A stretch of DNA of 64,000 nt. Origin: Gammaproteobacteria bacterium. Its GTDB lineage: Bacteria > Pseudomonadota > Gammaproteobacteria > Steroidobacterales > Woeseiaceae. The notes under the pieces are model-generated. The model ran no database searches, was not told the origin of the DNA, and saw only the letters and a program-made list of their open reading frames with translations. Position 1 is the stretch's first letter. Each line of letters begins with the position of its first letter. The stretch covers positions 1 through 64,000 of the forward strand of contig JAOTVR010000008.1 of NCBI GenBank assembly GCA_029863305.1, written 5' to 3'. The translations under genes were made by a program, and so were the position numbers. Positions 4,722-63,402 of this stretch are shown here, one piece after another.

Positions 4722-5024
4722 GGAATATCCTCGAGAGGTGAATGGCGATTGAGATAGTACTGAACCGTCAAGTCCGATGCGACTCGCGCTGGCACAAATA
4801 TTCGCGCAAACGACTGGTTGATCTTGCTGACTGACGCCAAACAGAGACAGTCCGGTGGCGGCAGAAAACCTCATTAAAACAAGCACCTGGACGATCTGTG
4901 GTGAGATCGCAACGGGCTCGTCGAATGGAACTGGACACCGGCGCAACGCCGTCGCTACCATCCGCGCCGAATCATCGCGACACCGGATCCTCCGGGTAAA
5001 TTTCGCAGACTTCAGGAGCATTCA

Positions 5025-5588
5025 ATGAAGATCTTTATTCTGCTGGCAGGCCTGCTGTTGCAGGGCATCGCCATGGCACAATCGTCCGAACAACCACCAC
5101 TCGTGCTCAACTATGACTACGTGGAACTGCGTTTCGTCGACGTCGACTCCAATGGCGGAGACGGCATTCGCGTCAACGGTTCCTATAACCTGGGCAACAA
5201 CTGGCTGGTCGTCGGTGGACTGACGTCGCTGGATTTCAACGGCAACGTTGATACGACGACCTGGGAACTCGGTGCCGGTTACGTCTGGGACTACTCAAAC
5301 GACTTTGATCTGCTGAGCAGCCTGCGCTACGTGCGAGCAGAGGCTGATACGCCAATTGGCAATGCCGACGATAACGGCTTTGCGTTCTCGGCCGGCGCAC
5401 GCGGCCTGCTGACACCCGAATTCGAGATTCGTGGGTCGGTCAACCACGTGAACTTCGACAATAGCGACACCTACCTCGAACTGGCGGGTGACTATCACTT
5501 CTCCCGGCAATTCGCTGCGGGCCTGAGCGTCGAATTCGCGGGCGATACCGACATCATCACAGTGGGAGCGCGCTGGTTTTTCAGGTAA
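5025..5588 (+). CDS. Outer-membrane beta-barrel family protein
   Basis: Signal peptide MKIFILLAGLLLQGIAMAQ, alternating amphipathic strands, C-terminal WFFR. Confidence 0.6.
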   Translation: MKIFILLAGLLLQGIAMAQSSEQPPLVLNYDYVELRFVDVDSNGGDGIRVNGSYNLGNNWLVVGGLTSLDFNGNVDTTTWELGAGYVWDYSNDFDLLSSLRYVRAEADTPIGNADDNGFAFSAGARGLLTPEFEIRGSVNHVNFDNSDTYLELAGDYHFSRQFAAGLSVEFAGDTDIITVGARWFFR

Positions 5589-5620
5589 GTCGAGCTACTG
5601 CAGTTCGACGCTGGCTCAAG

Positions 5621-6676
5621 TCAGTACGGCGGAACCAGCCTGCGAAGGCCGTGCCCGAGCACGATGAGCAGGAACACAAGATTGCGCAGCACGATGCCCG
5701 CGACAAAATAACGCGGGCATCGTGCAGTGTGCGATTGCTCGCTCTCGGCCAGTGCCTCGCCTAATCGCTCTATCCAGTTGACCGATCGCGGCCACTCGAC
5801 GATGTCGCTCAGCCACCTTGCCGGAATGCCGGCTTTGCCTGTCCCCGCACCGACAATGCCACCGTAAATCGCCCCTGCGGTGTCAGTGTCGCCACCGGCC
5901 CTGATGATGTCCTGCAAACCCGAGGCAAAATCTCCCGAACTGCCGAACCATGCCTGCAGCACGCAGGGCACGGTTTGGTAGCTGTAGCCCGAGATGCCGT
6001 CTTTCGAGCCGATGTCCGTTGCGAAATCAGCCACCGATTCATTGTTGGCCGCGGCCCGCGCCGCGTGCTGCAAAAGTTCCTGCAACTCCTCGGCGTCTTC
6101 TTCTGCCAGGAGTTCATCCAATGCCGGCAGATAGGAATCTGCCGATGGCGTCTCTTGCGTTGCACTCTGGTATGCCGCCAAAGCGACCGCAAGTGCCGCG
6201 TAATACGCTTTCGGATCCGAGTGTGTAATCTGCGTGGACGCTTTGACGAATTGTTTGAGTTTCTCCGGATCGTGCCCGTAAGCAACGCCGAGGATCGGGC
6301 TACGCATCGCCGGTCCGTTGCCGGCGGAAAACACACCACTTGCCTGCGGCGATAATCCGAACCAGAGTCTCACGATCGCTCGAAGCGTGGCGAAGCCGAC
6401 ACCGGCTGGCAGTCCAAGCAACCACCAGCGCAGCGCGCGCGCGAGCTGTTCTCGAAATGTGCCAACATCACCATTGGCGCGAATCAGGGCCTGGGCAACA
6501 AAACATGCGTGTTCGGTGTCGTCCGAGACCATGCCCTTGCCAAACAGCAAATGGTGGCTTGAAGTGTCAGGAAATAGTTTCGCGGCACGGCGTGCCGAAA
6601 GGCCCTCGTAGGGCAAACCAAGCGCATCGCCGACCGCGGTGCCCAGCAGACAGCCAATGCAGGCATCGGTGTTCAA
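5621..6676 (-). CDS. ADP-ribosylglycohydrolase (DraG/ARH-like) family protein with C-terminal hydrophobic segment
   Basis: GCLLGTAVGDALGLPYEG, SDDTEHA, GGDTDTAGAIYGGIVGA. Probable TTG start at 6676 overlapping the upstream TGA. Confidence 0.88.
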   Translation of the reverse strand: MNTDACIGCLLGTAVGDALGLPYEGLSARRAAKLFPDTSSHHLLFGKGMVSDDTEHACFVAQALIRANGDVGTFREQLARALRWWLLGLPAGVGFATLRAIVRLWFGLSPQASGVFSAGNGPAMRSPILGVAYGHDPEKLKQFVKASTQITHSDPKAYYAALAVALAAYQSATQETPSADSYLPALDELLAEEDAEELQELLQHAARAAANNESVADFATDIGSKDGISGYSYQTVPCVLQAWFGSSGDFASGLQDIIRAGGDTDTAGAIYGGIVGAGTGKAGIPARWLSDIVEWPRSVNWIERLGEALAESEQSHTARCPRYFVAGIVLRNLVFLLIVLGHGLRRLVPPY

Positions 6677-7632
6677 TGCACAGCCTCGTCGGGCGGCACG
6701 ATAAGCACGGCCTTCTTTGGTGCCGTCGACAGCGTGACTTCGGCGCCCGAATTGAACTCGAGGTAGTCCGCCTCCACACCATCGCTGAAGACGACGCCGT
6801 TGCTGGCCATCTGCGAGGTGACTTTCAGCGGCGTTCGATCCGTGAACACGCCGTGCACGATGGACGTTTGCGTCGCGATGCTCGGGAACGGTTCGCGAAC
6901 CGAGTAAACCAGGTGTTCGCTGTCCCAGTTCAGGCGCCCGCCGTTGGCAGGTGGAATCACTTGTCCGCCCAGTGCCTCGACGACGCCCGCCGCACCGGCG
7001 TAGACAGACTGCAACCACCCGGTCGAGCCGGCGCCCGTCGACACGATGATGCCCGAGGACGATTGCGTTTCGCTCCTGTCGCCGATTTGGATTCGATACC
7101 GCGCCGATACGTGCGAGCTTGCACCGATAAAGAAGTCATTGAATGCCATCAGGCTCTGGCCGTCGGAGAGTTCGGCCATCGCGAGCGTGACTTGTCTTGC
7201 GTGCAGCGGTCCGTACAGCGTCGTGTATAGCTGTTGCTCGACGTTGCTCGCATTGAACGGCAACAACACGCCATCGAAGCGTTCCGGGTCCGGATTGACG
7301 GCGAGTATGGGCTGCCCGGACAGGTACTTGGCGGTGTTCGAGACCAGGCCATCCTGCCCGACCGTCACGACGAGATCCGCTTTCCCAAACGTAAATCGCG
7401 GTACCAGGTCCCTGTCGATCAGCTGACTCTTGAAGCCGGTGGGGACCGCATGTCGAACCCTGGCGAGCACCTGCTCATGTTTCGCATGCGCGATCTCGAT
7501 ACGCTCGAACGACTGCCCCGCCTGCTGCAGATAAAAACGGGCCTGGGCTTTGGTATTGAAGCGCGCGACGAGATCATCGAGCTCGGTTTTCCGGGTCACG
7601 ATGATCACGTTTTCGTATTGCGGCGCGTTCAT
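6673..7632 (-). CDS. NAD(+) kinase-like protein (divergent motif)
   Basis: ADLVVTVGQDGLVSNTAKYL (GGDGT-like), NDFFIGASSHVSARY, GIIVSTGAGSTGW (cf. STPTGSTAY). Confidence 0.75.
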   Translation of the reverse strand: MNAPQYENVIIVTRKTELDDLVARFNTKAQARFYLQQAGQSFERIEIAHAKHEQVLARVRHAVPTGFKSQLIDRDLVPRFTFGKADLVVTVGQDGLVSNTAKYLSGQPILAVNPDPERFDGVLLPFNASNVEQQLYTTLYGPLHARQVTLAMAELSDGQSLMAFNDFFIGASSHVSARYRIQIGDRSETQSSSGIIVSTGAGSTGWLQSVYAGAAGVVEALGGQVIPPANGGRLNWDSEHLVYSVREPFPSIATQTSIVHGVFTDRTPLKVTSQMASNGVVFSDGVEADYLEFNSGAEVTLSTAPKKAVLIVPPDEAVH

Positions 7633-48722: not shown

Positions 48723-49895
48723 ATGGTCAGCCGTTTTCTTGTTATTGCGCTCATTGCCCTGGTCAGCTTTGCGGCTTCCGCGGATGATCGATATTGCGAA
48801 AATGGGCTGATTGCTGTCGATGCACGACATGCCGGCGGTGATCTGGACGGATGCAGATTCAAATCAGGAGATTCCGTCGAGCTTACGTTTCGTCCCGAAG
48901 ACCGGTCCGTTGATAACGATTTCTCCTGGTTTTCCTTCCGCGTAACGGCGAAGAAACCTCAGAAGATCAAAATCAGGATGCGCTTCCCTGACGGCTACGC
49001 TCGCTTCTGGCCAAAAATCAGTCATGACGGAAAATCCTGGACACCCGCTGCCGAAGCTGCCGTACGCCGGAACTGGTCGAAGAAGTCCATGACACTCATT
49101 GTCACAGCCGGCGAATCTGCAACATGGGTTTCGGCGCAGGAGTTGCTCACGCAGTCCTATTATGATCAGTGGCTCGAAGAATTGGCGGCGCATCAGGACA
49201 TACTCACGGCCGAGATTGGCAAGAGTGTCGAAGGTCGACCGGTGACGCTGGTCAAAACTTCGAACAAACGTGAGGCGATTGTCCTGCTTGGCCGGCAGCA
49301 CCCGACCGAGGTCCCCGGCGCACTGGCCATGCGCGTCTTTGTCGACGCGCTCCTCGCAGACACCGTACTCGCGAAAGAATTCCGCGAGCGCTTCACGCTG
49401 CTGATTGTCCCCCTCGTCAACCCCGACGGCGTGGAGAATGGACACTCGCGCCACAACGCCGGTGGCACCGACCTGAACCGCGACTGGGGTCCATTTACGC
49501 AACCCGAAACGCAGAGCATCGCCGGGCTACTGGAGGCCGTGGATAAGCTGAAAATGACGCCGAGACTGATGCTCGACTTCCATGCCACCAAGTACACTGA
49601 TTCTTTGCTCTTTTATACGCAACTGACTGAAGACGAAACCGACCCCCCGAATTTCGCGACCAACTGGTTGTACAGTGTCCGCTCGCGCTTGCCTGATTTT
49701 GCATTTGTTCATGACCCGCGTCCGACATCCGAACAGCCCAACACCAAAGGCTATTTCTATACTCGCTACGGCATTCCTTCCTTTACCTACGAACTCGGTG
49801 ACGAAGCAGATCGAGAGTCGATTCGCGCGTCAACGCCGATATTCGCCGAAGAAATGATGCGCGTCATGTTGCAGGCCGACTTACCCGGGACCTGA
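48723..49895 (+). CDS. M14 family zinc carboxypeptidase, secreted
   Basis: Signal peptide; LLGRQHPTEVPGALAMRVFVDAL; VNPDGVENGHSRHNAGGTDLNRDWG; LDFHATKY. Confidence 0.92.
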   Translation: MVSRFLVIALIALVSFAASADDRYCENGLIAVDARHAGGDLDGCRFKSGDSVELTFRPEDRSVDNDFSWFSFRVTAKKPQKIKIRMRFPDGYARFWPKISHDGKSWTPAAEAAVRRNWSKKSMTLIVTAGESATWVSAQELLTQSYYDQWLEELAAHQDILTAEIGKSVEGRPVTLVKTSNKREAIVLLGRQHPTEVPGALAMRVFVDALLADTVLAKEFRERFTLLIVPLVNPDGVENGHSRHNAGGTDLNRDWGPFTQPETQSIAGLLEAVDKLKMTPRLMLDFHATKYTDSLLFYTQLTEDETDPPNFATNWLYSVRSRLPDFAFVHDPRPTSEQPNTKGYFYTRYGIPSFTYELGDEADRESIRASTPIFAEEMMRVMLQADLPGT

Positions 49896-51483
49896 GCACC
49901 CGGCCGGGCCTTGCGCCAGTCATTTCCTTGTTCAGTAACACCGCACTGCCGTTGACGAAAACATGGTGCACACCCTCGGCGTACCGATGTGGATCGTCGA
50001 AGGTTGCTTTGTCGATGATCTCGTCAGGATCGAATACCGCAATATCCGCCATCGCGCCAACATCGAGACGGCCGCGATCATTGATGTTGATTCGATCGGC
50101 CGGCATGCGCGTCATCTTATTGATCGCTGATGTCAGCGACAGCAGGCCGCGCTCCCTGACATAGTGCCCGAGCACTTTGGCGTTAGTGCCGTAATAGCGG
50201 GGATGTGGCCGCAGCTTGCCCGGCGCCATTATGCCGCCGTCGGATGCAATCATCGTCTTCGGGTGCAGCATGATGCGATCGACATCCTCCAGCGACATCG
50301 CGTGATAAACGCAGGTGCAGCCACCGGCATACTGCAATTCCATTATGAGTTCTGCAGCGTTCCCGATACTGGCTTCGATGTCCCGCTGCACCAGAACGTC
50401 CGCCAGGTTCAAGCCGTTAAGTGATGGATCCCACACACAACTGGCCAGCGACACTCGTGACGGATCATTGCCGCCGCGCTCATTGATCATCGAGAAGACG
50501 ATGCCTTCCCTGATTTTCGTGCGCTGCGCGGGATCTTCGAGACGCAATTTGAGGGCATCGGTACCACCCTCCAGACTCCAGCGCGGGAATACTGCCAGCA
50601 GACCGGTAGAAGACGCCGCGTACGGATACTGATCGCTCGTAACGTCCGTACCGCGACGAATCGCAGCATCGACCAGATCCAGCGTCTTTGTTGAACTCCC
50701 CCACATCGGTGCACCCATCACTTTGTGGTGTGTGATTTGAACCGGAATACCGGATTCTTCGCCAATGCGGATTGTTTCCTCGATCGACTCCAGCAGGCCA
50801 AGCGCTTCATTGCGCATGTGGCTGATGTAGATGCCATCGTACTTCGCCGCGACCCTGGCCAATTCGATAAGTTCTTCGGTCGGCGCAAAACTGCCGGGCG
50901 CATACAAAAGGCCCGATGACAGGCCGAAAGCACCACTTTGCATTGCTACCTCGACCACGTGCCGCATTTGCTGCAGTTCCGCGTCAGTCGCCGGTCGATT
51001 GTCGTAACCCATGACCGTCTCACGCACAGTTCCATGGCCGACGAAGGTGCCGTAGTTGACACTCGCCGGGCTTTCACCGAGTTTCGCAAAGTCATTTTCA
51101 ATCGGTAATGGTGACCGGCCATCGGGACCGCCGATCACGCTCGTGACGCCCTGTCGAATCAGGTTTTCGGCGTCGGGCCAGAGATAGATGCCGCTGCGCG
51201 ATTGATTTGGGCGAATCGCATGGCTGTGGATGTCGATGAAACCCGGCGCGACCGCAAGCCCCGTGACATCGAGAACCAGGTCAGCCGGATGATCCCTGAG
51301 ATTGCCTATCGCAACGATGCGGTCCCCTTCGATACCGACGTCGGTGATAACCGGTTCTTCATCGAGCCCGTTGTAGACAGTGCCACCGATGAGTACGACG
51401 TCAAGCGACTCCTGAACCGAGTCGTGGGGCCCGGAACATCCCAGCAGTAGCACGGCAAGTGCCAGGCCACTAGACCAGCGCAT
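49864..51483 (-). CDS. N-acyl-D-amino-acid deacylase (D-aminoacylase) family lipoprotein
   Basis: Lipobox AVLLLGCSG; VAPGFIDIHSHAI; YISHMRNE; GESGIPVQITHHKVMG; IASDGGIMAPGKLRPHPRYYGT. Confidence 0.92.
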   Translation of the reverse strand: MRWSSGLALAVLLLGCSGPHDSVQESLDVVLIGGTVYNGLDEEPVITDVGIEGDRIVAIGNLRDHPADLVLDVTGLAVAPGFIDIHSHAIRPNQSRSGIYLWPDAENLIRQGVTSVIGGPDGRSPLPIENDFAKLGESPASVNYGTFVGHGTVRETVMGYDNRPATDAELQQMRHVVEVAMQSGAFGLSSGLLYAPGSFAPTEELIELARVAAKYDGIYISHMRNEALGLLESIEETIRIGEESGIPVQITHHKVMGAPMWGSSTKTLDLVDAAIRRGTDVTSDQYPYAASSTGLLAVFPRWSLEGGTDALKLRLEDPAQRTKIREGIVFSMINERGGNDPSRVSLASCVWDPSLNGLNLADVLVQRDIEASIGNAAELIMELQYAGGCTCVYHAMSLEDVDRIMLHPKTMIASDGGIMAPGKLRPHPRYYGTNAKVLGHYVRERGLLSLTSAINKMTRMPADRININDRGRLDVGAMADIAVFDPDEIIDKATFDDPHRYAEGVHHVFVNGSAVLLNKEMTGARPGRVLRSRVSRPAT

Positions 51484-53020
51484 TGGGAGCCAGGTAGAGG
51501 GCGACGATCGTCACGATGACAATGCCGATCAGGTTGAGGACTACGCCTGCCCGAACCATTTGCGGAATCGTGATCTGACCTGTTGCGAAGACGATCGCGT
51601 TCGGCGGTGTGGCAACCGGCAACATGAACGCACAGCTTGCGGCGATCGTAATCGGTACGGTCAGGAACAGCGGCGGAATCCCCGCCTGGATCGCGATAGC
51701 GCCCATCACCGGCAACAGCGTTGCGGTTGTGGCGAGGTTGCTCGTCAGTTCGGTCAGGAAGATCACCAGCGCCACCGCAGCGACGACCAGTACGGCGAGT
51801 CCCCAGGCGTTTAGCGGTGCGAGACTTTCGCCGAGCCACAATGCGAGCCCGGTATTCGAAACCGCTGCCGCCAGACTCAGGCCGCCGCCAAACAGGATGA
51901 GCACGCCCCATGGCAGTCGCGTGGCGTCATGCCAGGTCATGAGCTGCGGCTGCGATGGATTGCCGCTGGGCAACATGAACAGCAATACGCCTGCGGTCAT
52001 CACGATACCTGCATCGGACACACCGGTGATGCCCAGCAGCTCCGTGAGGGGACGCCGCAGCATCCATGAGAAAATCACGCAACCGAAGATGACGGCGACG
52101 CGGCGTTCCGGCGTCGTCATCGGCCCCATCTCCTCGCGCAACTGGTGCAGATGATCGTTCACTGCGTCGCTGGCCGGGATATTGACCGGGTGCAGAAAAC
52201 GCGTCAGGACGATCCACGCAACTGGCAGCATCACCAACGTCACCGGAACGCCGACAAGCATCCAGCGGGCGAAACTGATCTCGATGCCGTAGTTCTCCGC
52301 AAGATAGCCAATCAATAACGCGTTCGGTGGCGTACCGACCAGTGTCGCCAGCCCGCCGATACTCGCCGAGTAGGCGAGACCCAGCAGCATCGCAATCTGG
52401 AAATCATTACGCCTCTTTTCGGACAGGTCGGGGATGTTGTCGCGAATCACAGCGATCACCGACAGCACAATCGGCAACAACATCATCGTCGTCGACGTGT
52501 TGGTCATCCACATGCTCAGCATGGCGCAGACAAACATGAAGCCACCGATGAGGCGTCGTCCGTCGGTTCCCGTGCGATCGAGGATGGCGAGTGCAATGCG
52601 CCGGTGCAGATTCCAGCGCTCGAGCGCTAGCGCCATCAGGAAGCCACCGAGGAACAGATAGATGATCGGGTTCGCATAGTGCGCAGCCGCATTGCGCAGC
52701 GTCGCGATGCCCAGCGGTTCGAATATAACGATCGGCAAGAACGCGGTGACCGGTACCGGAATCGCCTCGGTTGCCCACCAGATCGCCATCCACAATCCAA
52801 TGGCAGCCGCGCGCCAGGCCTGCACGTTCATCACGTCTTGCCATTGATCAGTCGCCAGCATCGTGGCGAATACGGCCGGGCCAAGAACACGGCCAACCAG
52901 CTGGTACGTCTCGATTGGCCGGTTGACCGAAGGTTCAGCGGTATTGGGTGATGTAATCAATGTTCGGGCCCCGGACAACCGCGACAGGGAACCCTGTGGG
53001 CTCCCTGTCGCGCCTGGCAT
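51470..53020 (-). CDS. SLC13/DASS family anion transporter
   Basis: WMAIWWATEAIPVPVTAFLPIVIFEPLGI; FMFVCAMLSMWMTNTSTTMMLLPI; TLVGTPPNALL; LTELTSNLATTATLLPV. Confidence 0.93.
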   Translation of the reverse strand: MPGATGSPQGSLSRLSGARTLITSPNTAEPSVNRPIETYQLVGRVLGPAVFATMLATDQWQDVMNVQAWRAAAIGLWMAIWWATEAIPVPVTAFLPIVIFEPLGIATLRNAAAHYANPIIYLFLGGFLMALALERWNLHRRIALAILDRTGTDGRRLIGGFMFVCAMLSMWMTNTSTTMMLLPIVLSVIAVIRDNIPDLSEKRRNDFQIAMLLGLAYSASIGGLATLVGTPPNALLIGYLAENYGIEISFARWMLVGVPVTLVMLPVAWIVLTRFLHPVNIPASDAVNDHLHQLREEMGPMTTPERRVAVIFGCVIFSWMLRRPLTELLGITGVSDAGIVMTAGVLLFMLPSGNPSQPQLMTWHDATRLPWGVLILFGGGLSLAAAVSNTGLALWLGESLAPLNAWGLAVLVVAAVALVIFLTELTSNLATTATLLPVMGAIAIQAGIPPLFLTVPITIAASCAFMLPVATPPNAIVFATGQITIPQMVRAGVVLNLIGIVIVTIVALYLAPNALV

Positions 53021-53023
53021 GAA

Positions 53024-56000
53024 CTAGAAGTCCAGTTTCAGATCGAGGTAATACGCACGCGGCAGATCGCGATGCACGTCGGACCAGTAACCGAACCTGA
53101 CGTCAGCGAGTGGCGCACGCTCATCGAAAACATTGTTAATACCGAATCGAACTCGAGCGTCGGTGTCGCCGAAAGTCTTAAACTCGTAGTCGAGCGACGC
53201 ATTGAATGTGTACATCGAAGGAACCACGTAGAGCGGCCCGTTACCATCGTCGAAAGTCAGCGCCGTCTGCACCAAATCACTGACATACACACCACTCATC
53301 GAAGCGCCCCAGTCATTGTTCCGCCAGGACAGCCGTAGCGTATGCTTCTCTTTAGGATTGCCGTTCTGACGAATGAGGTCCGAAAAACCCCGAATCGACA
53401 ATCCGGCGGGAAGGACACCGTCATCTATTGCGGTGAGAAGCTCGAGGGCAGGACCGCTGGGCACCTGGCTGTACTCGGTCAGATACGCGGCGACATAACG
53501 CAGATCAAATGTTCCGACACTGCTGTCGTAGTTGAAGTAGACGCCAATGTCATGACCTTTGATCTTGCGTGTATCGAGGTTGGCGTACGTATCTTCAACC
53601 CGCAAAACCGGAGCAGCCGGGCAGATGCCTGCTCCGAGGTAGAGGTCTATTTCCTCCTGCTCCAGGGTTGCCGGGTCGCCACGAACAACGGCGGGATTTC
53701 CAACGGCTGACGCGCAGTTGCCGGTGCCTGCTTCAATCCTGCGCAACAAGTCGAGCGCGGTGTGGTTCTCTTCGCCGAACAGGCCGATCGTGTCGTCCTT
53801 TTCGATCGACCAATAGTCGACCGTCAGTGTCAGGTGCTCATTGGGACTGAACACGAGACCTACTGACGCATTCGTCGATTCCTCCGGCACTAGACTCGAA
53901 CTACCGCCTGCTGTTCGTTGCATCGAGTAACTGCATTCCGCGTCACCTGGCTTGGCATAGAAACACGGGAAGTCGTTGATCCCGGGGTTTGTACGTGCCA
54001 CGCCGGATTCGTTCACAGTGACGAGATTGGGAACCCGGTACGCTTCAGAAATCGAACCGCGAAACAGCAGCTGTTCGGCAGGTCGCCAGCCAACGGCAAT
54101 TTTCCCGACCGTTGTATCGCCGACATCAGAAAAATCTTCGTAACGCATTGCCGCCTGCACGTCGAAATTACTGGCTAATGGAATTTGCAGTTCCACAAAC
54201 GCCGAGGTCACATCCCTCTCGCCTTTGCTATCGAGACTGGGACTCGAGTTCATGACGTCAGCGACCAACGGAAAGCCGGCCCCGGAGTCGTCGATAAACT
54301 CGATCGTCCCATCGAGACGCGGATCCCTGTCATCGACGAAGGACTCCTGACGGAACTCGATGCCGGCGACCATGCCGACCTGGCCTGCAGGCATGCCGAA
54401 CAGATCGTTTTTCGAAACCCTGAAATCGATCGATTTGAGCTCAGTCTCATTATCCCTGCGGACATCGATCAGGGCCGGCGTGATATCGGCGTCGCGACCG
54501 ATGAACGGGTTATAGGCTGACGGTGTGGAGTCATTGAGCATCTGCGTGATAATCGTATTCGAAATACGATTGTGGGTGACGTCTTCCTTGGTTGCGCGCG
54601 ACCAACTGACAGCGCCTTCCCAGTCCCAGCTGCCCATTTCACCGCGAAAACCCTGCAGAATTCTGAACGTCTCGCCGTCGTTGTCGACTATACGTGGCAC
54701 CTGGGTCCATCTGTAATTATCGATACTCAAATCAAAGCCCGCACAAGGCACGCCGCCGTTGGTATCGTCTCCAATCAGTTCGAATGGCAGTCGATTCGGA
54801 TTGTCGCTGCCATCAGCAAGCGTGCAGACCCCGAACGGATTCCAGTAATTCTCCGCCGGCACCTGGTATTTTGCGACGCTACCCAGTCTCGCCGAGGCAT
54901 GCCGTATCGTATTGGTGTAGGACAGGTACGCCGAAACTTCCGTGAAACTTTCGACGCCGCTGGCAAATTCATGATTCAGGAACGCAAATACGTTAACCCT
55001 GTCGAGGTCTGAAAAGAGGTCCCGATCTTCGTTGTTGTTATAGCGATAAATTGGGGCATCATCATCATTACCGCACACGCCGGCTCCGGGGTAAAACGCC
55101 CAGTCACAGTCCGGGTGGCCGACCGGATAAACCTGAAACTCTCCCGCCGTATCGGTGATGTCATTGCCGACCAGGCCATAGCGATCCCGATTACTGCTCG
55201 GATTGACGCTGGTGTTGATATCGAACTGACCGTACTCGGAGTTGGTGCTGCTGTTATAAAATCGCGTGCAGGCATCATCACCGCCGTTTACATCCCGATC
55301 CTCGCAATCCGGCTCGGCCCACGGCGAGCCTTCGGGCAGCAATCGACGATAGTCATCGTTGGCCCATTTCGGATCATCCTGCGAGTTGATGCGATCGCGA
55401 TGATAATAGTCCGCGAATAGGCTGAAGTTGGTATTACCGCCGTTAAAATTCCTGCCCCACTCGACTGTCAGTCGTTGGTTCGTGCTGGGCAGTCCGTCAT
55501 AGGCATTGTATCTGGCCCTGAGGCTAAGGCCCTCATACTCCTTTTTCATGACATAGTTCACGACGCCGGCGACAGCATCAGCACCGTAAATGGCCGAAGC
55601 ACCATCGCGCAGCACTTCAACACGCTCCAAACCAAACACGGGCAGTGACTGTGAGTTGACCGAGTTCACAGGGACGAAACTACCGCCGACCAGCTCCGTC
55701 TGGTAACTGGCTGCATTGACCATGCGTCTGCCGTTAAGCAGCACCAGCGTGTTGCCCGTACCGAGGTTTCTCAGGTTGTAAGCACCCATATCACCGCGGG
55801 CCGAGTTTACGCCGCCACTGATGTTCTCCGCCTCAGTATGAAAATTCGACCCTTGCTCAGCCATGAACTCGAGCAACTCATCACCCGAGTCGACGCCGAG
55901 AATCTCGATATCCTCCGCGGTGACGACCGACACGGCGAGTGCGTCAGAGATCCTTGCGCCTTTGATCTGCGTTCCGGTAACGACGACCTCGTCGATACGC

Positions 56001-56122
56001 GAGTCGTCATCGGCGGCTTCGTCCTGTGCCAGCGCATTGCCAACTGCCAATGGCAATGCGAACACACTCAGGAGCGATGTGGCACGGCGAATACCGCACG
56101 GAAATGTGCTCTGGACTGACAT
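53024..56122 (-). CDS. TonB-dependent receptor
   Basis: TonB box-like IDEVVVTGTQI, plug LRNLGTGNTLVLLNGRRMVNAASYQTELVGGSFVPVNSVNSQSLPVFGLERVEVLRDGASAIYGADAVAGVVNYVMKK; C-terminal YYLDLKLDF. Confidence 0.95.
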   Translation of the reverse strand: MSVQSTFPCGIRRATSLLSVFALPLAVGNALAQDEAADDDSRIDEVVVTGTQIKGARISDALAVSVVTAEDIEILGVDSGDELLEFMAEQGSNFHTEAENISGGVNSARGDMGAYNLRNLGTGNTLVLLNGRRMVNAASYQTELVGGSFVPVNSVNSQSLPVFGLERVEVLRDGASAIYGADAVAGVVNYVMKKEYEGLSLRARYNAYDGLPSTNQRLTVEWGRNFNGGNTNFSLFADYYHRDRINSQDDPKWANDDYRRLLPEGSPWAEPDCEDRDVNGGDDACTRFYNSSTNSEYGQFDINTSVNPSSNRDRYGLVGNDITDTAGEFQVYPVGHPDCDWAFYPGAGVCGNDDDAPIYRYNNNEDRDLFSDLDRVNVFAFLNHEFASGVESFTEVSAYLSYTNTIRHASARLGSVAKYQVPAENYWNPFGVCTLADGSDNPNRLPFELIGDDTNGGVPCAGFDLSIDNYRWTQVPRIVDNDGETFRILQGFRGEMGSWDWEGAVSWSRATKEDVTHNRISNTIITQMLNDSTPSAYNPFIGRDADITPALIDVRRDNETELKSIDFRVSKNDLFGMPAGQVGMVAGIEFRQESFVDDRDPRLDGTIEFIDDSGAGFPLVADVMNSSPSLDSKGERDVTSAFVELQIPLASNFDVQAAMRYEDFSDVGDTTVGKIAVGWRPAEQLLFRGSISEAYRVPNLVTVNESGVARTNPGINDFPCFYAKPGDAECSYSMQRTAGGSSSLVPEESTNASVGLVFSPNEHLTLTVDYWSIEKDDTIGLFGEENHTALDLLRRIEAGTGNCASAVGNPAVVRGDPATLEQEEIDLYLGAGICPAAPVLRVEDTYANLDTRKIKGHDIGVYFNYDSSVGTFDLRYVAAYLTEYSQVPSGPALELLTAIDDGVLPAGLSIRGFSDLIRQNGNPKEKHTLRLSWRNNDWGASMSGVYVSDLVQTALTFDDGNGPLYVVPSMYTFNASLDYEFKTFGDTDARVRFGINNVFDERAPLADVRFGYWSDVHRDLPRAYYLDLKLDF

Positions 56123-56298
56123 GTTTTCTCCCCCTGCTTGTGGCCGGATTCTCTGCCCGGCGACGAGCGCACAAATGCGCTCTATTAGGTGTATAACGCG
56201 CGACCGCTGCAAAATCCGCTATCCAGGCGAAATATTTGCCGTATGCGCCCAAGCTAGCAGGGCCCGGGGTCGTGGGCCAATGACTTGACTTTGCCCAC

Positions 56299-56317
56299 CC
56301 ATGAGTCCGGGTTATGG
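56299..56317. promoter_or_regulatory. Candidate LysR operator, copy 1
   Basis: CCATGAGTCCGGGTTATGG; matches CCATAA-N7-TTATGG with one mismatch; contains T-N11-A. Confidence 0.65.
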
Positions 56318-56361
56318 AGTAAATCAATTTCTCGGTGTTTTCAGGCCGCGATTCGGCTAAG

Positions 56362-56380
56362 GTATAACCAGTAGTTATGG
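56362..56380. promoter_or_regulatory. Candidate LysR operator, copy 2 (13 bp upstream of the lysR-type ATG)
   Basis: GTATAACCAGTAGTTATGG; ATAA-N7-TTAT core with T-N11-A. Confidence 0.65.
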
Positions 56381-56393
56381 GGAGGCTGCGGCC

Positions 56394-57284
56394 ATGCGAT
56401 TGCGGCAAATCGAGGTATTCCACGCGATTTACACCAGCGGGTCCATGACCAACGCTGCGAAAATTCTCAACGTCTCGCAACCATCGGTCAGTAAGGTCCT
56501 GGCACATGCGGAACAGCAACTCGGCTATGCCTTGTTCGACCGGGTCAAAGGCAAGCTCGTCGCGACCCCCGAGGCAGACCGGCTGTTTGGCCTGGTCGCA
56601 AACGTGTTCGAGCATGTCGAACAGCTCAGGCATGTTGCCGCGAATCTGCGCGCGTCCGACGTTGGCAAGGTGCGCATCGCGGCAACCCCGGCATTTGGTG
56701 TGGATTTCCTGCCGACGGCCATCAGTTCCTATCTCGACGATCATGCCGACACCGTTTTCGAGATCGAGACACTGCACCACGATGAAATCGCCGATGCGTT
56801 GCTCGAGTCCCGTGTCGATATCGGTCTTGCGTTCAATCCGGTGCCTGTGCCAGGTCTGCTGACAGAGGCAATCGCGAGCGGCGAATTTGTTGCCATTACG
56901 CCGAAAAATATCGATTTTGGCGACCAGGCCCGGGTCACGGTTCAATCACTGGCCGAGCTTCCTTTCATCAGCCTCAGCGGTCGCGGCCCGCTCGGCCGAC
57001 TGCTGTCGAGCCACCTGGAGGGCTGCGACGTCGACCTCGACACGATCGTCTATACGGAGACTTATCACATCGCGAAAGCGCTGGTTGTCAAAGGCGTCGG
57101 TGCATCAATCGTCGATGCGTTCACAGCGTATTCGACCGCAGGGGAAAATATCCGGAGCTGGCCGCTGGATCCACCCCTGCGCTATTCGGTCGAGGTCGTG
57201 AGCGCCGACAGCATGCCCTTGTCCATACTCAGCCGACGATTCATCGATCACCTGCGAATCGTCATGACCGGCTACCTGCGATAA
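56394..57284 (+). CDS. LysR family transcriptional regulator
   Basis: MRLRQIEVFHAIYTSGSMTNAAKILNVSQPSVSKVLAHAEQQLGYALFDRVKGKLVATPEA. Confidence 0.96.
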   Translation: MRLRQIEVFHAIYTSGSMTNAAKILNVSQPSVSKVLAHAEQQLGYALFDRVKGKLVATPEADRLFGLVANVFEHVEQLRHVAANLRASDVGKVRIAATPAFGVDFLPTAISSYLDDHADTVFEIETLHHDEIADALLESRVDIGLAFNPVPVPGLLTEAIASGEFVAITPKNIDFGDQARVTVQSLAELPFISLSGRGPLGRLLSSHLEGCDVDLDTIVYTETYHIAKALVVKGVGASIVDAFTAYSTAGENIRSWPLDPPLRYSVEVVSADSMPLSILSRRFIDHLRIVMTGYLR

Positions 57285-57292
57285 CAAAGCAG

Positions 57293-57311
57293 CCATAAGC
57301 TGCGGTTATGG
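57293..57311. promoter_or_regulatory. Candidate LysR operator, copy 3 (upstream of dadA-like gene)
   Basis: CCATAAGCTGCGGTTATGG, perfect 6-bp arms, 7-bp spacer, T-N11-A. Confidence 0.75.
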
Positions 57312-57393
57312 GCGCACATCAAAAGGACATTGGCCGGACCGCAGAGCACATCAGTAACATGATCGCGACCGTTATCTAAAGTCGGGAGCAGCT

Positions 57394-58629
57394 ATGCACA
57401 TCGCAGTCCTGGGAGCTGGTGTCGTTGGCGTGACGACTGCCTGGTATCTGGCTGAGGCGGGCCACGAAGTGACTGTTATCGAACGCGAGAATGCGGTTGC
57501 GCAGGGCTGCAGTTTTGCGAACGGCGCCCAGCTCAGCTACAGCTACATGGATGCGATGGCAAACCCGGCGTTCCTGGCGAAGCTGCCGGCATTGCTCGCT
57601 GGATTCGACAGCGCCGTTCGGGTACGTCCGCAAATCAACGCGGATCTGCTGCGCTGGGGGCTGGCGTTCATCAACGAGTGCACCGCGAGCAAGGCTGCTG
57701 CAAATACTCGTGTTAATCTGCGACTGGCACGGCGCTCGCAGCAATTGATGGGTGAACTCGTGCCAACGCTCGACATGGACTTCTCGCATCGCAGCGCCGG
57801 CAAAATCATCCTGTTAGCAAGTGACAAGGAAATGCGAGCCGCTGCCCGCAACAGCAAATTGAAGGCTGAATTCGGATTCAGGGCCGATGTGATAAGCCTC
57901 GCTGAGGCCATCGATATCGAGCCGGCTATCCAGTACATGACCGGCCGATACGCGGGAGCCGTCCATTCGCCAGGCGACGATGTCGGCGATTCGCAGGCGT
58001 TTACCGTTGCTCTTGCGCGGCAATTGACTGATCGGCCGGGTTGTCGTTTGAGCCTGAACACGGCAATCCATGAAATCATCACCGAGAATGGTCGGGTTCG
58101 GGCTGTCGATACAAGCCGCGGACCGATCGACGTCGACGCCGTGGTCGTCTGCCTTGGCGCGTCGAGCCCGCGATTACTCAAGCCACTGGGCATCGATCCA
58201 GGCATCTATCCAGTGCGCGGCTACAGCGTGACGCTGCGTCGGGGACAACACACCAATTCGGTGAGCGTGACCGACTTCAGCAGACGTTTTGTCATCAGTC
58301 GCATCGGCGAGCAAGTGCGCATCGCGGGATTCGCCGATTTTGTCGGATTTCGCACGTCAAAGGACGCACAGAGGGTGGCAAAGCTGCTTCATGTTGCCGG
58401 CGCCGTCGCGCCCTGTGCGGCCGACTACCAGACATCGCCCAACCGCGCGTGGGGAGGTTTTCGACCATTGACGGCTAATGGTCGACCGTTGCTTGGACCG
58501 ACGTCTGTGACCGGCCTGTACCTGAATACCGGCCACGGTACGCTGGGTTGGACGCTCGCGTGTGCGTCGGGCGAAGAAGTCGCGCAGGCCGTGTCAGGGC
58601 AGCCCGCGGCCAGTCAGCTGGCGGCCTAG
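57394..58629 (+). CDS. dadA: D-amino acid dehydrogenase (DadA-like FAD oxidoreductase)
   Basis: MHIAVLGAGVVGVTTAWYLAEAGHEVTVIERE; NRAWGGFRPLTANGRPLLGPT; LYLNTGHGTLGWTLACASG. Confidence 0.92.
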   Translation: MHIAVLGAGVVGVTTAWYLAEAGHEVTVIERENAVAQGCSFANGAQLSYSYMDAMANPAFLAKLPALLAGFDSAVRVRPQINADLLRWGLAFINECTASKAAANTRVNLRLARRSQQLMGELVPTLDMDFSHRSAGKIILLASDKEMRAAARNSKLKAEFGFRADVISLAEAIDIEPAIQYMTGRYAGAVHSPGDDVGDSQAFTVALARQLTDRPGCRLSLNTAIHEIITENGRVRAVDTSRGPIDVDAVVVCLGASSPRLLKPLGIDPGIYPVRGYSVTLRRGQHTNSVSVTDFSRRFVISRIGEQVRIAGFADFVGFRTSKDAQRVAKLLHVAGAVAPCAADYQTSPNRAWGGFRPLTANGRPLLGPTSVTGLYLNTGHGTLGWTLACASGEEVAQAVSGQPAASQLAA

Positions 58630-59687
58630 CGACTGCGCAGCACGATCCAGTCGACGTGGCGATCGTCAACGACAATGCCGTATTCGTCCCGCAAGCGATC
58701 CAGAAAGTCTCTCGTGTCTCCGGTCTTGAACTCGCCGGATATCTTCAGACCACTTAGCGCACTATCTGCCACGTGAATCGACACGTGGTTATAACGGCGC
58801 ATTTCCTCGACCACTGCCTGCAAGGGTTGTTCCTCGAACGACACCACTCCGGAACGCCACGACAGCCTCTTCCTGAATTCCTCGGTACCCAGAACTCTTT
58901 GACGTTGTGTGGAGCCGGAGACCTCGAGCCATTCGCCAGCGCCGAGATGGGCCACACTTCGTGCAAGACGAATATCAACGTCGCCATCGTACTCAGTCAG
59001 CGGTAGCGGCGACTCGTTACTCATCACGGACACCTGCCCTTCAATGACCGAGACCTCGAGCAACTCATTGTCGACTTCCACATTGAACGTCGTTCCCAGA
59101 GCAGCGATCGTGCCCATAGCGGTCCGCACGACGAACGGGCGACTGTCACTGGCGACGTGGAAGACGGCTTCCCCCCTGCTCATTTGCACTTCGCGGCGGG
59201 AGTCATCGATAACGACTTGCATCGTGGTACGGGCATTCATCTCGAGCATCGAGCCGTCGTTCAACACAATATGTCTGGACTCACCCACTTCCGTAGCCAA
59301 CTCCTCGCCCGCCACTGAAAATACAAGATGCATTGCAACGCCGAGGGCGATGATGACCGTGGCCGCAATTGCCGACCAACCGCTTCCTCCGGACACCGCC
59401 GCTGCCGCGTTCGACTCTGCACCCGGCGACGCCGCACTCTGCAATCGCACGATGTTGCCGCGTTCCATCAATGGTTCTACATCCGCCAGAGTCTTGAGTC
59501 GCGCCCACACTTCCGAGAGCTCTTCAAACGCCAACCGATGACGCAGGTCTTCGTCGAGCCAGCGAGCGAACGCGAGTTGATCCGCCGCGTTGCAGCTGTC
59601 CGAGTCCAGCATTGCCATCCACGTCGCGGCGTCCTCGAGCACGATTTCGGGAATGTCCTGCCCGAACAGGTCACTGAACACGGTCAT
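58626..59687 (-). CDS. FecR-family anti-sigma/transducer protein with C-terminal STN-like segment
   Basis: DUF4880-like N-terminus (DQLAFARWLDEDLRHRLAFEELSEVW), single TM, FecR core (VGESRHIVLNDGSMLEMNARTTMQVVIDDSRREVQMSRGEAVFHV). Confidence 0.92.
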   Translation of the reverse strand: MTVFSDLFGQDIPEIVLEDAATWMAMLDSDSCNAADQLAFARWLDEDLRHRLAFEELSEVWARLKTLADVEPLMERGNIVRLQSAASPGAESNAAAAVSGGSGWSAIAATVIIALGVAMHLVFSVAGEELATEVGESRHIVLNDGSMLEMNARTTMQVVIDDSRREVQMSRGEAVFHVASDSRPFVVRTAMGTIAALGTTFNVEVDNELLEVSVIEGQVSVMSNESPLPLTEYDGDVDIRLARSVAHLGAGEWLEVSGSTQRQRVLGTEEFRKRLSWRSGVVSFEEQPLQAVVEEMRRYNHVSIHVADSALSGLKISGEFKTGDTRDFLDRLRDEYGIVVDDRHVDWIVLRSR

Positions 59688-60259
59688 GCGTCCGTCCCCG
59701 TCAACCTGGCGCGGAGATCGGCGGGCAGCGCCGCAGCGGCAGTCTTGCTGCTGTGCTGAATCTCGTCCTTGCAATAACGCAGTCCTTTGGCCAGGTGTTT
59801 CTCGACCGTACTTACGGAGATACCGAGCTGCTCGCCAATTGCGCGTTGACTCAAACCTTTGATCCAGCGCAGAACGAACACGTCACGACACCTTGGTGGC
59901 AGAGAATTGATGATCAACAGCAACTCGTTCAGTTTCTGGCTCGCGCTGATCTGTTGTTCCGTGGTGGGGCTGTCGCCACGCAGCTCCTCGGCAACCTCGA
60001 CAGCGGAAATCGAGTGCCGCACCACCTTTTGATGGCGCAGCCGGGAAATCGCGATATTTCTCGCGGCCCTGTAAAGCAATGCAACCGGCGCGTGACCGCC
60101 AGGGCGGTCCTTGCGCAGAGCGACAAACACCTTCAGGTAGGCATCCTGCAAGATGCCCTGCACGTCATCCGGAGACGAGACAATGCGCCGGACACAGTCT
60201 GTCAGTCCGATTCTTGTCTCTTCGACGAGTTCGTCAAACCATTCGTGCGATGGCTGCAT
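59684..60259 (-). CDS. RNA polymerase ECF sigma factor (FecI-like)
   Basis: Regions 2/4: DVQGILQDAYLKVFVAL, LYRAARNIAISRLRHQ, LPPRCRDVFVLRWIKGLSQRAIGEQLGISVSTVEKHLAKGLRYC; ATGA overlap with FecR. Confidence 0.95.
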   Translation of the reverse strand: MQPSHEWFDELVEETRIGLTDCVRRIVSSPDDVQGILQDAYLKVFVALRKDRPGGHAPVALLYRAARNIAISRLRHQKVVRHSISAVEVAEELRGDSPTTEQQISASQKLNELLLIINSLPPRCRDVFVLRWIKGLSQRAIGEQLGISVSTVEKHLAKGLRYCKDEIQHSSKTAAAALPADLRARLTGTDA

Positions 60260-60318: not shown

Positions 60319-60345
60319 TTCGGGACAGTTTACTGAAGTCCCGAA
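60319..60345. other. Perfect inverted repeat across the ArgH-like stop codon, upstream of the ECF sigma gene
   Basis: TTCGGGAC (60319-60326) / GTCCCGAA (60338-60345), 11-bp spacer. Confidence 0.6.
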
Positions 60346-61799
60346 AACTCGCGATCGAGCATGGCGATCGATGACCGCAAGCGCTGCTGCGATGCATGCA
60401 GCCATTCGAACTGCCCTTGCAGCGATACGTTGTGCCGGGCCAGCATGCGCAATACTTCCGCGGGCTGCGGGCCACCGAGGCCTCTGCGCCGGCGCACCAT
60501 CGCGGCCGGGTCCATCGCCTGTCTGATCAACTCGACATCGACCGGCAAGTCGTCACCCGTGGATTCCTTATAGACGTAAAGCAGCTCTTCGTCCGACAGG
60601 TCCTTCGGACGTTTGCCCGCGGCGCGGCCGTATGTCGTCAGCTCAGATGCGTAGTGATGACCGATCCGAAAAGGTATGTCGGCATGCCGCAGCAACACGT
60701 CAGCGACCTCCGTCATCGTGGAGTAATCGATGTCGACCTCTTCAAGTGCCCGGTCCTTGTCGACGATCAGGTGCGTCATCACGTCAACGTAGGCCCGGAA
60801 CATTTCCCGGGCCTGCTCTGCCGTATGCAACGCCTCGGTCCCCGGCCGATAGTCGTTCATGCCGCTGTTGGTGTTATGCGCATTCAGCGTGACGGTGTGC
60901 GCGCTGCCTACCACGGCCGTCGCGAGCAGGCGCACGCGGTCGAGCGGCCGCGGATTGCGTTTCTGCGGCATGATGCTGCTGACGTCTGTCCGCGCCTCCT
61001 CGAGCAGAATCCACGGCGACGGATTGTGGTATTGCGTGTGCAGATTCTGCATCAACTGCCCCACTACAATGGCTGACGTCGACAGTGCGCTCGCGAATTC
61101 GATCTTCGAATCGACAGACGACACCAGATTCGCATCGTACGAATTCTCGACGACCGCATCGAAACCGAGCAAATCAGCGAGACGCTGGCGATTGATTGGA
61201 AATCCGGATGTGCCGAGCGCGGCGGCGCCAAGAGGACTGACATTCAATCTGGCATAGCTTTGCTGCAGTCGCTCCGCGTCGCGCTCGAAGGCGGCCGAGA
61301 ATGCCAGCAGATAGTGGGCCAGCGACGTCGGCTGTGCCTGCACGCCGTGCGTATAGGCAGGAATGATCGTATCGACATGCTGCGCGGCCAGTTCGAGCAG
61401 CGCCAGGCGGGCCGCGAGCAACGCGTCGCAGGTTCCCAGCAGCGCTTCACGCAGCGCCATGCGCCGATAGGTCGATCCGATGTCCTGGCGGCTGCGACCC
61501 GTGTGCAGGCGGGACGCCTCGGCGCCAGCCACTTCGAGCAGGCGCGCCTCGAAATCCAGGTAGTTGCTCGAGCGAATGCTACCCGCCCGATTCTGCTCGT
61601 CGATGACCGTGGCAATACCCGCCGCGATCTTTGCGGCGAGTTTGGCAGGCACCAGGCCTTCTTCGGCCAGCATGACGATCGAGGCTTTGTTGATCTGAGC
61701 GACGTGATGAAAGTCGTCGTGAACGGTCGCACGCAGACCGCTTGTCGCCAGCAACAATCCGCAGACACAGCCGAGCAGAACCCGCTTCTCAGGGACCAT
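60330..61799 (-). CDS. Argininosuccinate lyase-like (fumarase/aspartase superfamily) protein with N-terminal signal peptide
   Basis: Signal-like MVPEKRVLLGCVCGLLLATSGLRA; LHTGRSRQDIGSTYRRMALRE; VSSIMPQKRNPRPLDRVR; NTNSGMNDY. Confidence 0.85.
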   Translation of the reverse strand: MVPEKRVLLGCVCGLLLATSGLRATVHDDFHHVAQINKASIVMLAEEGLVPAKLAAKIAAGIATVIDEQNRAGSIRSSNYLDFEARLLEVAGAEASRLHTGRSRQDIGSTYRRMALREALLGTCDALLAARLALLELAAQHVDTIIPAYTHGVQAQPTSLAHYLLAFSAAFERDAERLQQSYARLNVSPLGAAALGTSGFPINRQRLADLLGFDAVVENSYDANLVSSVDSKIEFASALSTSAIVVGQLMQNLHTQYHNPSPWILLEEARTDVSSIMPQKRNPRPLDRVRLLATAVVGSAHTVTLNAHNTNSGMNDYRPGTEALHTAEQAREMFRAYVDVMTHLIVDKDRALEEVDIDYSTMTEVADVLLRHADIPFRIGHHYASELTTYGRAAGKRPKDLSDEELLYVYKESTGDDLPVDVELIRQAMDPAAMVRRRRGLGGPQPAEVLRMLARHNVSLQGQFEWLHASQQRLRSSIAMLDREFSGLQ

Positions 61800-63402
61800 T
61801 CACACCGCCATACGCAATACCGGCAAGTCGTGCCATATCGGTATTGAACGTGGTCAGATCGTCCGGATTGAAGCCCTGCAGATGATCGTGCCCCGCCGCT
61901 CTGGCAAGTACGCACATCAGATCGACCGACGCGCGGAAGAATCGCGACAGGCGTTCGGCGGCGATGTCGACGGGCAGGCGCTCGCGCAAGTGGGGTTTTT
62001 GTGTCGCGATGCCAACCGGGCAGTTGTTCGTATGGCAGGCGCGCATGCCGACGCAGCCGATGGCCTGAATGGCCGCGTTCGATACGGCAACTGCATCGGC
62101 GCCGAGCGCCATTGCCTTTGCAAAGTCTGCCGGGTGCCTGAGCCCGCCCGTAATCACCAGGGTCACGCCGGCTGCGCCTGACACATCGAGATGTCTTCTG
62201 GCTCTCGCCAGTGCGGGAATGGTAGGCACCGAGATGTTGTCGCGAAATATCAACGGCGCCGCACCGGTGCCGCCGCCACGTCCATCGAGAATGATGTAGT
62301 CGACGCCAATCTCGAGCGCCGCGTCGATATCTTTTTCAATGTGTTGCGCCGAGAGTTTGAATCCGACCGGAATACCGCCGGTCCGTTCGCGTACCTCGGC
62401 AGCGAATTCCCTGAATTGGCTGAGTTCGGTCCAGTCGGGAAACCGCGCCGGCGAAATCGCCGCATGACCTTCAGGCAGGTTGCGAACCGCGGCAATCTTG
62501 CCTTTGACCTTTTCTCCCGGCAGATGGCCACCCGTGCCCGTCTTCGCGCCCTGACCGCCCTTGAAGTGAAACGCCTGCGTTTTCCGCACCTTGTCCCAGG
62601 AAAATCCGAAGCGTGCGGACGCCAACTCATAAAAATAGCGGCTGTTCGCTGCCTGTTCCTCGGGCAGCATGCCGCCCTCACCCGAACAGATGCCCGTGCC
62701 GGCTTGTTCGGCGCCCTTCGCGAGAGCAACTTTGGCTTCTTCGGACAACGCGCCGAAGCTCATGTCAGAGACGAACAGAGGTATGTCCAGTCGCAACGGT
62801 TTATCCGCGTTCGCGCCGATGACGACTTCGGTGCCAACAGGGTCTTCATCGAGCAGCGGCAGTTTGTGCAGCTGCCCAACGACAAATTGAATGTCGTCCC
62901 ACCTGGGTAACTGCTTGCGTGACACGCCCATGGCCGCCGCCGGACCGTGATGACCCACTTTGCTCAGGCCCTCATCCGCAAGCCTGCGAATATACTTGAC
63001 GTAGGGCTCGTCGCTGCTGCCCGTGTGATCCTGGTACACGCCCTGATAGGCGTCACGCTGATAGGGCTGCGGATGGCGCTGCGACCAGGCCCTGATCTCT
63101 TCCTCATCGACCAGCACCTTGCCCTGTTCCACCCACGATGCGAACTTCGGCAGTGTTTCGCTGTGCTTGTATTCGCTGACACCCGTGTCGAGGCGATAAT
63201 CCCAGAAATGCACGCCGCATATCAGGTTGTCACCTTTGACGAAGCCGTCGGCCATCAGCGCGCCGCGGTGTGCACAGCGCCCATACATGACAGATACCGC
63301 ATCGTCGAAGCGAACGACAACGAGATCGACATCGCCGACCAACGCATGCGCCGGTTCGCGATCCTGGAGGTCGTCCCAATTGGCGATAGCGACCTTATTC
63401 AT
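61789..63402 (-). CDS. Rieske [2Fe-2S] domain fused to an FMN-binding glutamate synthase (GltB central domain)-like protein
   Basis: Rieske GRCAHRGALMADGFVKGDNLICGVHFWDY (CxH…CxxH); GltB-like FVSDMSFGALSEEAKVALAKGAEQAGTGICSGEGGM, DGRGGGTGAAP, CVGMRACHTNNCPVGIATQ. Confidence 0.9.
   Translation of the reverse strand: MNKVAIANWDDLQDREPAHALVGDVDLVVVRFDDAVSVMYGRCAHRGALMADGFVKGDNLICGVHFWDYRLDTGVSEYKHSETLPKFASWVEQGKVLVDEEEIRAWSQRHPQPYQRDAYQGVYQDHTGSSDEPYVKYIRRLADEGLSKVGHHGPAAAMGVSRKQLPRWDDIQFVVGQLHKLPLLDEDPVGTEVVIGANADKPLRLDIPLFVSDMSFGALSEEAKVALAKGAEQAGTGICSGEGGMLPEEQAANSRYFYELASARFGFSWDKVRKTQAFHFKGGQGAKTGTGGHLPGEKVKGKIAAVRNLPEGHAAISPARFPDWTELSQFREFAAEVRERTGGIPVGFKLSAQHIEKDIDAALEIGVDYIILDGRGGGTGAAPLIFRDNISVPTIPALARARRHLDVSGAAGVTLVITGGLRHPADFAKAMALGADAVAVSNAAIQAIGCVGMRACHTNNCPVGIATQKPHLRERLPVDIAAERLSRFFRASVDLMCVLARAAGHDHLQGFNPDDLTTFNTDMARLAGIAYGGVNGP

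Follow-up and report, generated by a model that had tools for sequence, protein, structure and literature searches.

Three similar palindromes lie around the gene of a LysR-type regulator in the 64,000-nucleotide stretch of Woeseiaceae DNA analysed here (the window). They raise the question of whether this regulator controls, through them, its own gene, the neighbouring dadA-like gene and the divergent operon of a TonB-dependent receptor. Comparison with related genomes makes it very probable that the palindromes are operators of the neighbouring LysR protein, which would activate the receptor operon and dadA and repress lysR. The genes concerned are as follows.

49864–51483, reverse strand: hydrolase of the D-aminoacylase/N-acyl-D-amino-acid deacylase family (Pfam Amidohydro_3); overlaps the DASS gene
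51470–53020, reverse strand: DASS-family transporter (TIGR00785, 304 bits, cut-off 199); 3-base gap to the receptor gene
53024–56122, reverse strand: TonB-dependent receptor, first gene of the divergent operon (Pfam TonB barrel, 2.2e-31; Plug, 9.4e-15)
56394–57284, forward strand: LysR-type regulator, 296 aa (Pfam HTH_1, 9e-17; LysR_substrate, 5.9e-29)
57394–58629, forward strand: dadA-like D-amino acid dehydrogenase (Pfam DAO, 1.2e-65; NCBIfam PRK00711, 372 bits, cut-off 383)

The regulator is of the LysR type, with both the helix-turn-helix domain (PF00126, 61.2 bits) and the substrate-binding domain (PF03466, 101.4 bits) scoring over the cut-off. The receptor, transporter and hydrolase genes are tightly spaced, share one direction and diverge from lysR. 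The hydrolase features a lipobox-like N-terminus, and its closest PDB matches are D-aminoacylase (1m7j/1rjp, E about 6e-85) and N-acyl-D-glutamate deacylase (3gip, 7e-75).

The palindromes are positioned as follows.

56299–56317, reverse strand: site 1, CCATGAGTCCGGGTTATGG, one mismatch to CCATAA-N7-TTATGG, centre 56308; predicted LysR operator (recognition site) of the TonB-receptor–DASS–aminoacylase operon, facing left
56362–56380, forward strand: site 2, GTATAACCAGTAGTTATGG, two mismatches to CCATAA-N7-TTATGG, centre 56371; predicted operator, 13 bp ahead of the lysR start codon and overlapping the gene's predicted promoter/5′ leader
57293–57311, forward strand: site 3, CCATAAGCTGCGGTTATGG, exact CCATAA-N7-TTATGG; predicted LysR operator, the recognition site at the dadA promoter

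The three sites were found with the letters and at the coordinates given in an earlier note on this DNA. Each contains the T-N11-A signature, and the distance of 63 bp claimed between the centres of sites 1 and 2 (56308 and 56371) is correct. Between site 3 and the dadA start codon (57394) there are 82 bases. The assumption of one shared motif held for all three sites, but its form had to be revised: the weight matrix and the sites of relatives give CCATARCC-N3-GGYTATGG instead of CCATAA-N7-TTATGG.

The genome scan that the earlier note had suggested gave a divided result. The bare 12-letter motif occurs at chance level, with 12 copies of CCATAA-N7-TTATGG at up to three mismatches in the 64-kb window versus 10.3 expected, and 44 at up to two mismatches in the 4.25-Mb genome versus 126 for the reversed control. 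Since this motif is not significant on its own, the case for the sites depends on relatives. A symmetric weight matrix was built from 54 orthologous sites with the window excluded (consensus CCATAACCTCAGGTTATGG). Among all 19-mers of the window, this matrix, whose training sites had been picked with a consensus resembling the window's own, placed site 2 first (22.6 bits), site 3 second (20.3 bits) and site 1 third (13.7 bits), followed by a fourth-ranking match of 7.3 bits. Only 0.08 matches of at least 13.7 bits are expected per 64 kb. Site 1 is the weakest of the three, and about five matches of its strength are expected per genome. Elsewhere in the genome, two copies of the motif with at most one mismatch lie 3.4 kb apart on contig C28. 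They were rejected as operators and are taken as chance occurrences, because neither was scored by the promoter model described below and no such regulator or D-amino-acid gene is evident alongside.

Relatives of the regulator were collected from genome contigs and from the genomes of its family, 26 out of 101 of which encode one. About 25 of them, 44–79% identical to the window regulator, have one site just upstream of lysR and one upstream of dadA. The former starts 28–48 bp ahead of lysR in 24 relatives, and in nearly all a second site follows 9–45 bp past lysR. At least 11 of the 16 consensus letters were present within 120 bp upstream of lysR in 25 of 27 loci (2.8% of randomised regions) and within 80 bp downstream in 23 of 26 (1.3% of randomised regions). 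The equivalent of site 1 occupies the same position in loci L016–L021. The receptor-side site accompanies the receptor gene and moves with it where the latter is 2–3 kb away or has changed places with dadA. In genome G051, for example, dadA and the receptor are on exchanged sides of lysR and each retains a site. Genome G061 carries a site ahead of a dadA–M14–aminoacylase operon, with no lysR above the threshold used. An M14 peptidase gene is also present in the window (48723–49895); it was dropped as an additional target, as the matrix scan found no site ahead of it in the window, though the gene is targeted in relatives.

Promoter geometry was studied in ungapped alignments centred on the dyad, comprising 27 dadA-side loci and 10 divergent-side promoters. 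Both sets share an A at +17, ATTGG/ATTTG at +27 to +31 and a −10-like TA..AT, located at +53 to +58 on the dadA side and one base nearer the dyad on the divergent side; dadA-side promoters also contain AAT at +20 to +22. The corresponding elements of the window are listed below.

56277–56281, reverse strand: conserved ATTGG (−35-like) of the receptor promoter, at +27 to +31 relative to the site 1 dyad (10-promoter alignment)
56251–56256, reverse strand: TAGCTT, predicted −10 of the receptor promoter, at +52 to +57 relative to the site 1 dyad (conserved columns)
57329–57333, forward strand: conserved ATTGG/ATTTG (−35-like) of the dadA promoter, at +27 to +31 relative to the site 3 dyad (27-locus alignment)
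57355–57360, forward strand: predicted −10 TAACAT of dadA, at +53 to +58 relative to the site 3 dyad (TAGTAT in many relatives)

Transcription is predicted to start near 56244 for the receptor and near 57367 for dadA, the dyad of the latter lying at about −65. A distance of about 65 bp between dyad and predicted start at sites 1 and 3 would match the classical layout of a LysR-type activator, with the recognition site at about −65 (PMC4730206; PMC5002191). On the promoter side alone, the mean matrix score rises to a secondary peak at +21/+22 (z 3.5 and 3.2), weak individually; it corresponds to about −43 and is comparable to the −44 repeat of CynR (PMC5002191). Site 2 is not followed by downstream elements of the type found at sites 1 and 3. 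Its right arm enters a −10-like TATACt in many relatives, while the lysR −10 of the window is not clearly defined; the placement suggests an autorepression layout. A consensus sigma-70 scan found none of the predicted promoters, and the −35-like and −10-like elements of dadA are widely spaced (about 19 bp, TTGGCC/TAACAT). Site 1 is the predicted operator of the receptor operon, site 2 of lysR and site 3 of dadA; LysR is expected to activate at the first and third and to repress at the second.

The mechanism that we infer comprises LysR binding, activation or repression according to the site, cooperation and an inducer. Sites 1 and 3 would be bound with high affinity as the recognition sites of the receptor-operon and dadA promoters, at about −65, and a weaker subsite near −43 would permit an inducer-dependent shift activating RNA polymerase. 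LysR bound at site 2 would repress lysR, since this site overlaps the predicted lysR promoter or leader. A D-amino acid, either free or in N-acyl or peptidyl form, probably acts as the inducer.

In six divergent loci, the window's and those of five relatives, exactly 63 bp separate sites 1 and 2; a seventh locus has 64 bp. The spacer is 32% identical pairwise versus 71–74% within the sites, so it is the distance and not the spacer sequence that is kept. Held six helical turns apart, tetramers on the two sites would probably interact, and this contact probably links autorepression with the receptor promoter's state. Two bound tetramers cooperating on one face of the helix would be the simplest reading of the pair. 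The exact distance across a diverged spacer could also mean that one looped operator, made up of sites 1 and 2, serves both divergent genes, with no separate role for site 1 at the receptor. This reading is unlikely, however: in L022, L023, L025, L027 and many other genomes the receptor promoter retains its site and the full activator layout 2–3 kb from lysR, and the receptor-side and lysR sites of L078 and L082 are separated by 119 and 182 bp, respectively. As the sites are so far apart in these loci, the pairing appears dispensable for the receptor promoter itself.

The extent of the putative regulon was assessed using a model of the activated promoter, 75 positions long. In the genome of the window, it matched site 3 (57292–57361, E 8.2e-10) and site 1 (56249–56318, reverse strand, E 1.4e-7). 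These were the only matches at E < 0.3, the next having an E of 0.4; both promoters belong to the training set, so the result shows that the genome holds no others and is not an independent discovery. Among the 101 family genomes, the model has matches in 25 of 26 with the regulator versus 2 of 75 without it (Fisher 2.8e-20), a co-occurrence that adjacency makes partly expected. Sixteen matches outside the training set, which carry more weight, were inspected singly. Ten are directly ahead of a TonB receptor and four directly ahead of dadA; another (G010) runs off the contig end, and the last (G011), weak, partial and without an operator, was rejected as spurious. The matrix also detected high-scoring sites beside the genes of more distant LysR homologues, in Alteromonadaceae L030, Paraglaciecola L028 and Xanthomonadaceae L031–L035. 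The L031 site lies ahead of a gamma-glutamyltransferase gene, itself located before dadA and lysR. In Cupriavidus and relatives (about 30% identity), the site is just past lysR and before genes for a nitrilase-family amidase, an ammonia-lyase and a D-aminoacylase-family protein. No matrix site was found alongside the homologues of Bordetella and most of those of Achromobacter.

Co-occurrence, gene order, rearrangements and geometry together support control of lysR, dadA and the TonB–DASS–aminoacylase operon by one regulator, as proposed earlier with the last as a possible target. It could be another regulator, possibly a global one, that binds the palindromes and happens to act here. Short palindromes are bound by many regulators, and the motif is of a generic LysR kind (for CynR, too, ATAA-N7-TTAT is reported; PMC5002191) that a paralogous LysR could recognise. 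Nevertheless, the promoter model follows the window LysR across the family genomes and gives no further promoters in its own genome, and high-scoring operators stand beside its distant homologues, which makes another regulator quite improbable.

It is highly improbable that site 3 is a terminator or attenuator of lysR and the other two sites are chance look-alikes. The end of lysR does lie just ahead of site 3, and a hairpin resembling a terminator was scored at 57289–57303 on the minus strand, but the lysR strand lacks a T-run, the same motif precedes both the receptor gene and lysR, promoter elements at fixed distances are conserved alongside site 3, and the dadA promoters of G051 and G061, away from the lysR end, still have a site. 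Chance similarity of all three sites, in keeping with the lack of enrichment of the 12-letter motif in window and genome, is of negligible probability given the ranks from the window-free matrix and the conservation among relatives, the latter already refuting it.

DsdC (LysR type) and DadR (Lrp type) are regulators of adjacent D-amino-acid breakdown genes. The window regulator likewise adjoins such genes. DadR belongs to a different family; identification of the window regulator as DsdC was rejected (15% identity in the alignment), and no operator was found by scanning the dsdC intergenic region of E. coli. The nearest curated family is PRK11013 (NCBIfam), which we take to be the model of E. 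coli LysR, the activator of lysA. The score of 167.4 bits is below the cut-off of 288, and equivalence with E. coli LysR was therefore rejected. The two proteins are 29% identical, with a similar HTH segment, and a scan of the lysA–lysR intergenic gap of E. coli found no matching operator.

In the OccR/occQ system of Agrobacterium, a high-affinity inverted repeat at about −64 is accompanied by weaker repeats nearer the promoter, with IR3 at −33 (PMC5002191). The window resembles it in having a LysR-type regulator and a strong inverted repeat upstream, possibly also a weaker one on the promoter side. It differs in that the putative weak subsite is near −43, a second strong dyad is located 63 bp away at lysR, and the predicted targets are D-amino-acid genes rather than those of octopine uptake. 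The OccR effector domain has weak similarity to the window regulator (PDB 5vvh, E 8e-6). In E. coli CynR/cynTSX, inverted repeats of the form ATAA-N7-TTAT occur at −66, −44 and −34 relative to the start (PMC5002191). The overall operator layout is alike, but the regulator and targets are different and the palindrome here is longer (CCATARCC-N3-GGYTATGG). The mechanism would be that of known LysR-type systems, and the regulon itself appears undescribed.

Searches confined to the open-access literature found no description of this regulator or regulon, of any LysR-type regulator from Woeseiales, or of one that controls a D-amino acid dehydrogenase or a D-aminoacylase. One study lists Woeseiales among the carriers of D-amino-acid genes, and a search of its text found no regulator named (PMC12363236). 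Marine sediments commonly harbour Woeseiaceae, and their old organic matter includes D-amino acids left by dead bacteria. The locus would represent a textbook LysR-type design in a setting without earlier description, the uptake and breakdown of D-amino-acid compounds by marine-sediment Woeseiaceae. We tentatively suggest that the regulator might belong to an undescribed broad LysR-type family for D-amino-acid and N-acyl-D-amino-acid catabolism, possibly spanning Woeseiaceae, Alteromonadaceae, Xanthomonadaceae and Cupriavidus, some Woeseiaceae members of which might use a fixed six-turn operator pair to couple autorepression to scavenging in sediments. The predicted operator, with two target promoters per genome, would offer a ready reporter for the sensing of D-amino-acid compounds by Woeseiaceae, and the motif can be used for assigning such genes elsewhere.

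Several further features of these loci were recorded. In the window, an ECF sigma-factor gene (59684–60259) is situated near dadA. Beyond it, on the reverse strand, is a gene for an ArgH-like lyase (60330–61799; TIGR00838, 253 bits, cut-off 279.5), the N-terminus of which resembles a signal peptide, odd for a cytoplasmic enzyme family; a Rieske and glutamate-synthase-domain fusion (61789–63402) adjoins it. In L021 (Woeseia sp. OFTM247), the promoter of the site 1 type (site centred at 5909) faces not a TonB receptor but an ECF sigma-factor gene (5265–5810, reverse strand), 50% identical to that of the window. Between the distant receptor and lysR, L022 has a PGA_cap-family gene (3908–5974, reverse strand) and L025 an ORF (3921–5906, reverse strand). 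An extra operator in L025 (8196–8214) lies ahead of genes for a LysA-like decarboxylase (TIGR01048, 235 bits, cut-off 298), a Na+/H+-antiporter-family transporter and a D-aminoacylase-family protein, a possible enlargement of the regulon. On the contig of L026, a second LysR gene (6136–7020, reverse strand), its product 45% identical to the window regulator, is possibly a paralogue.
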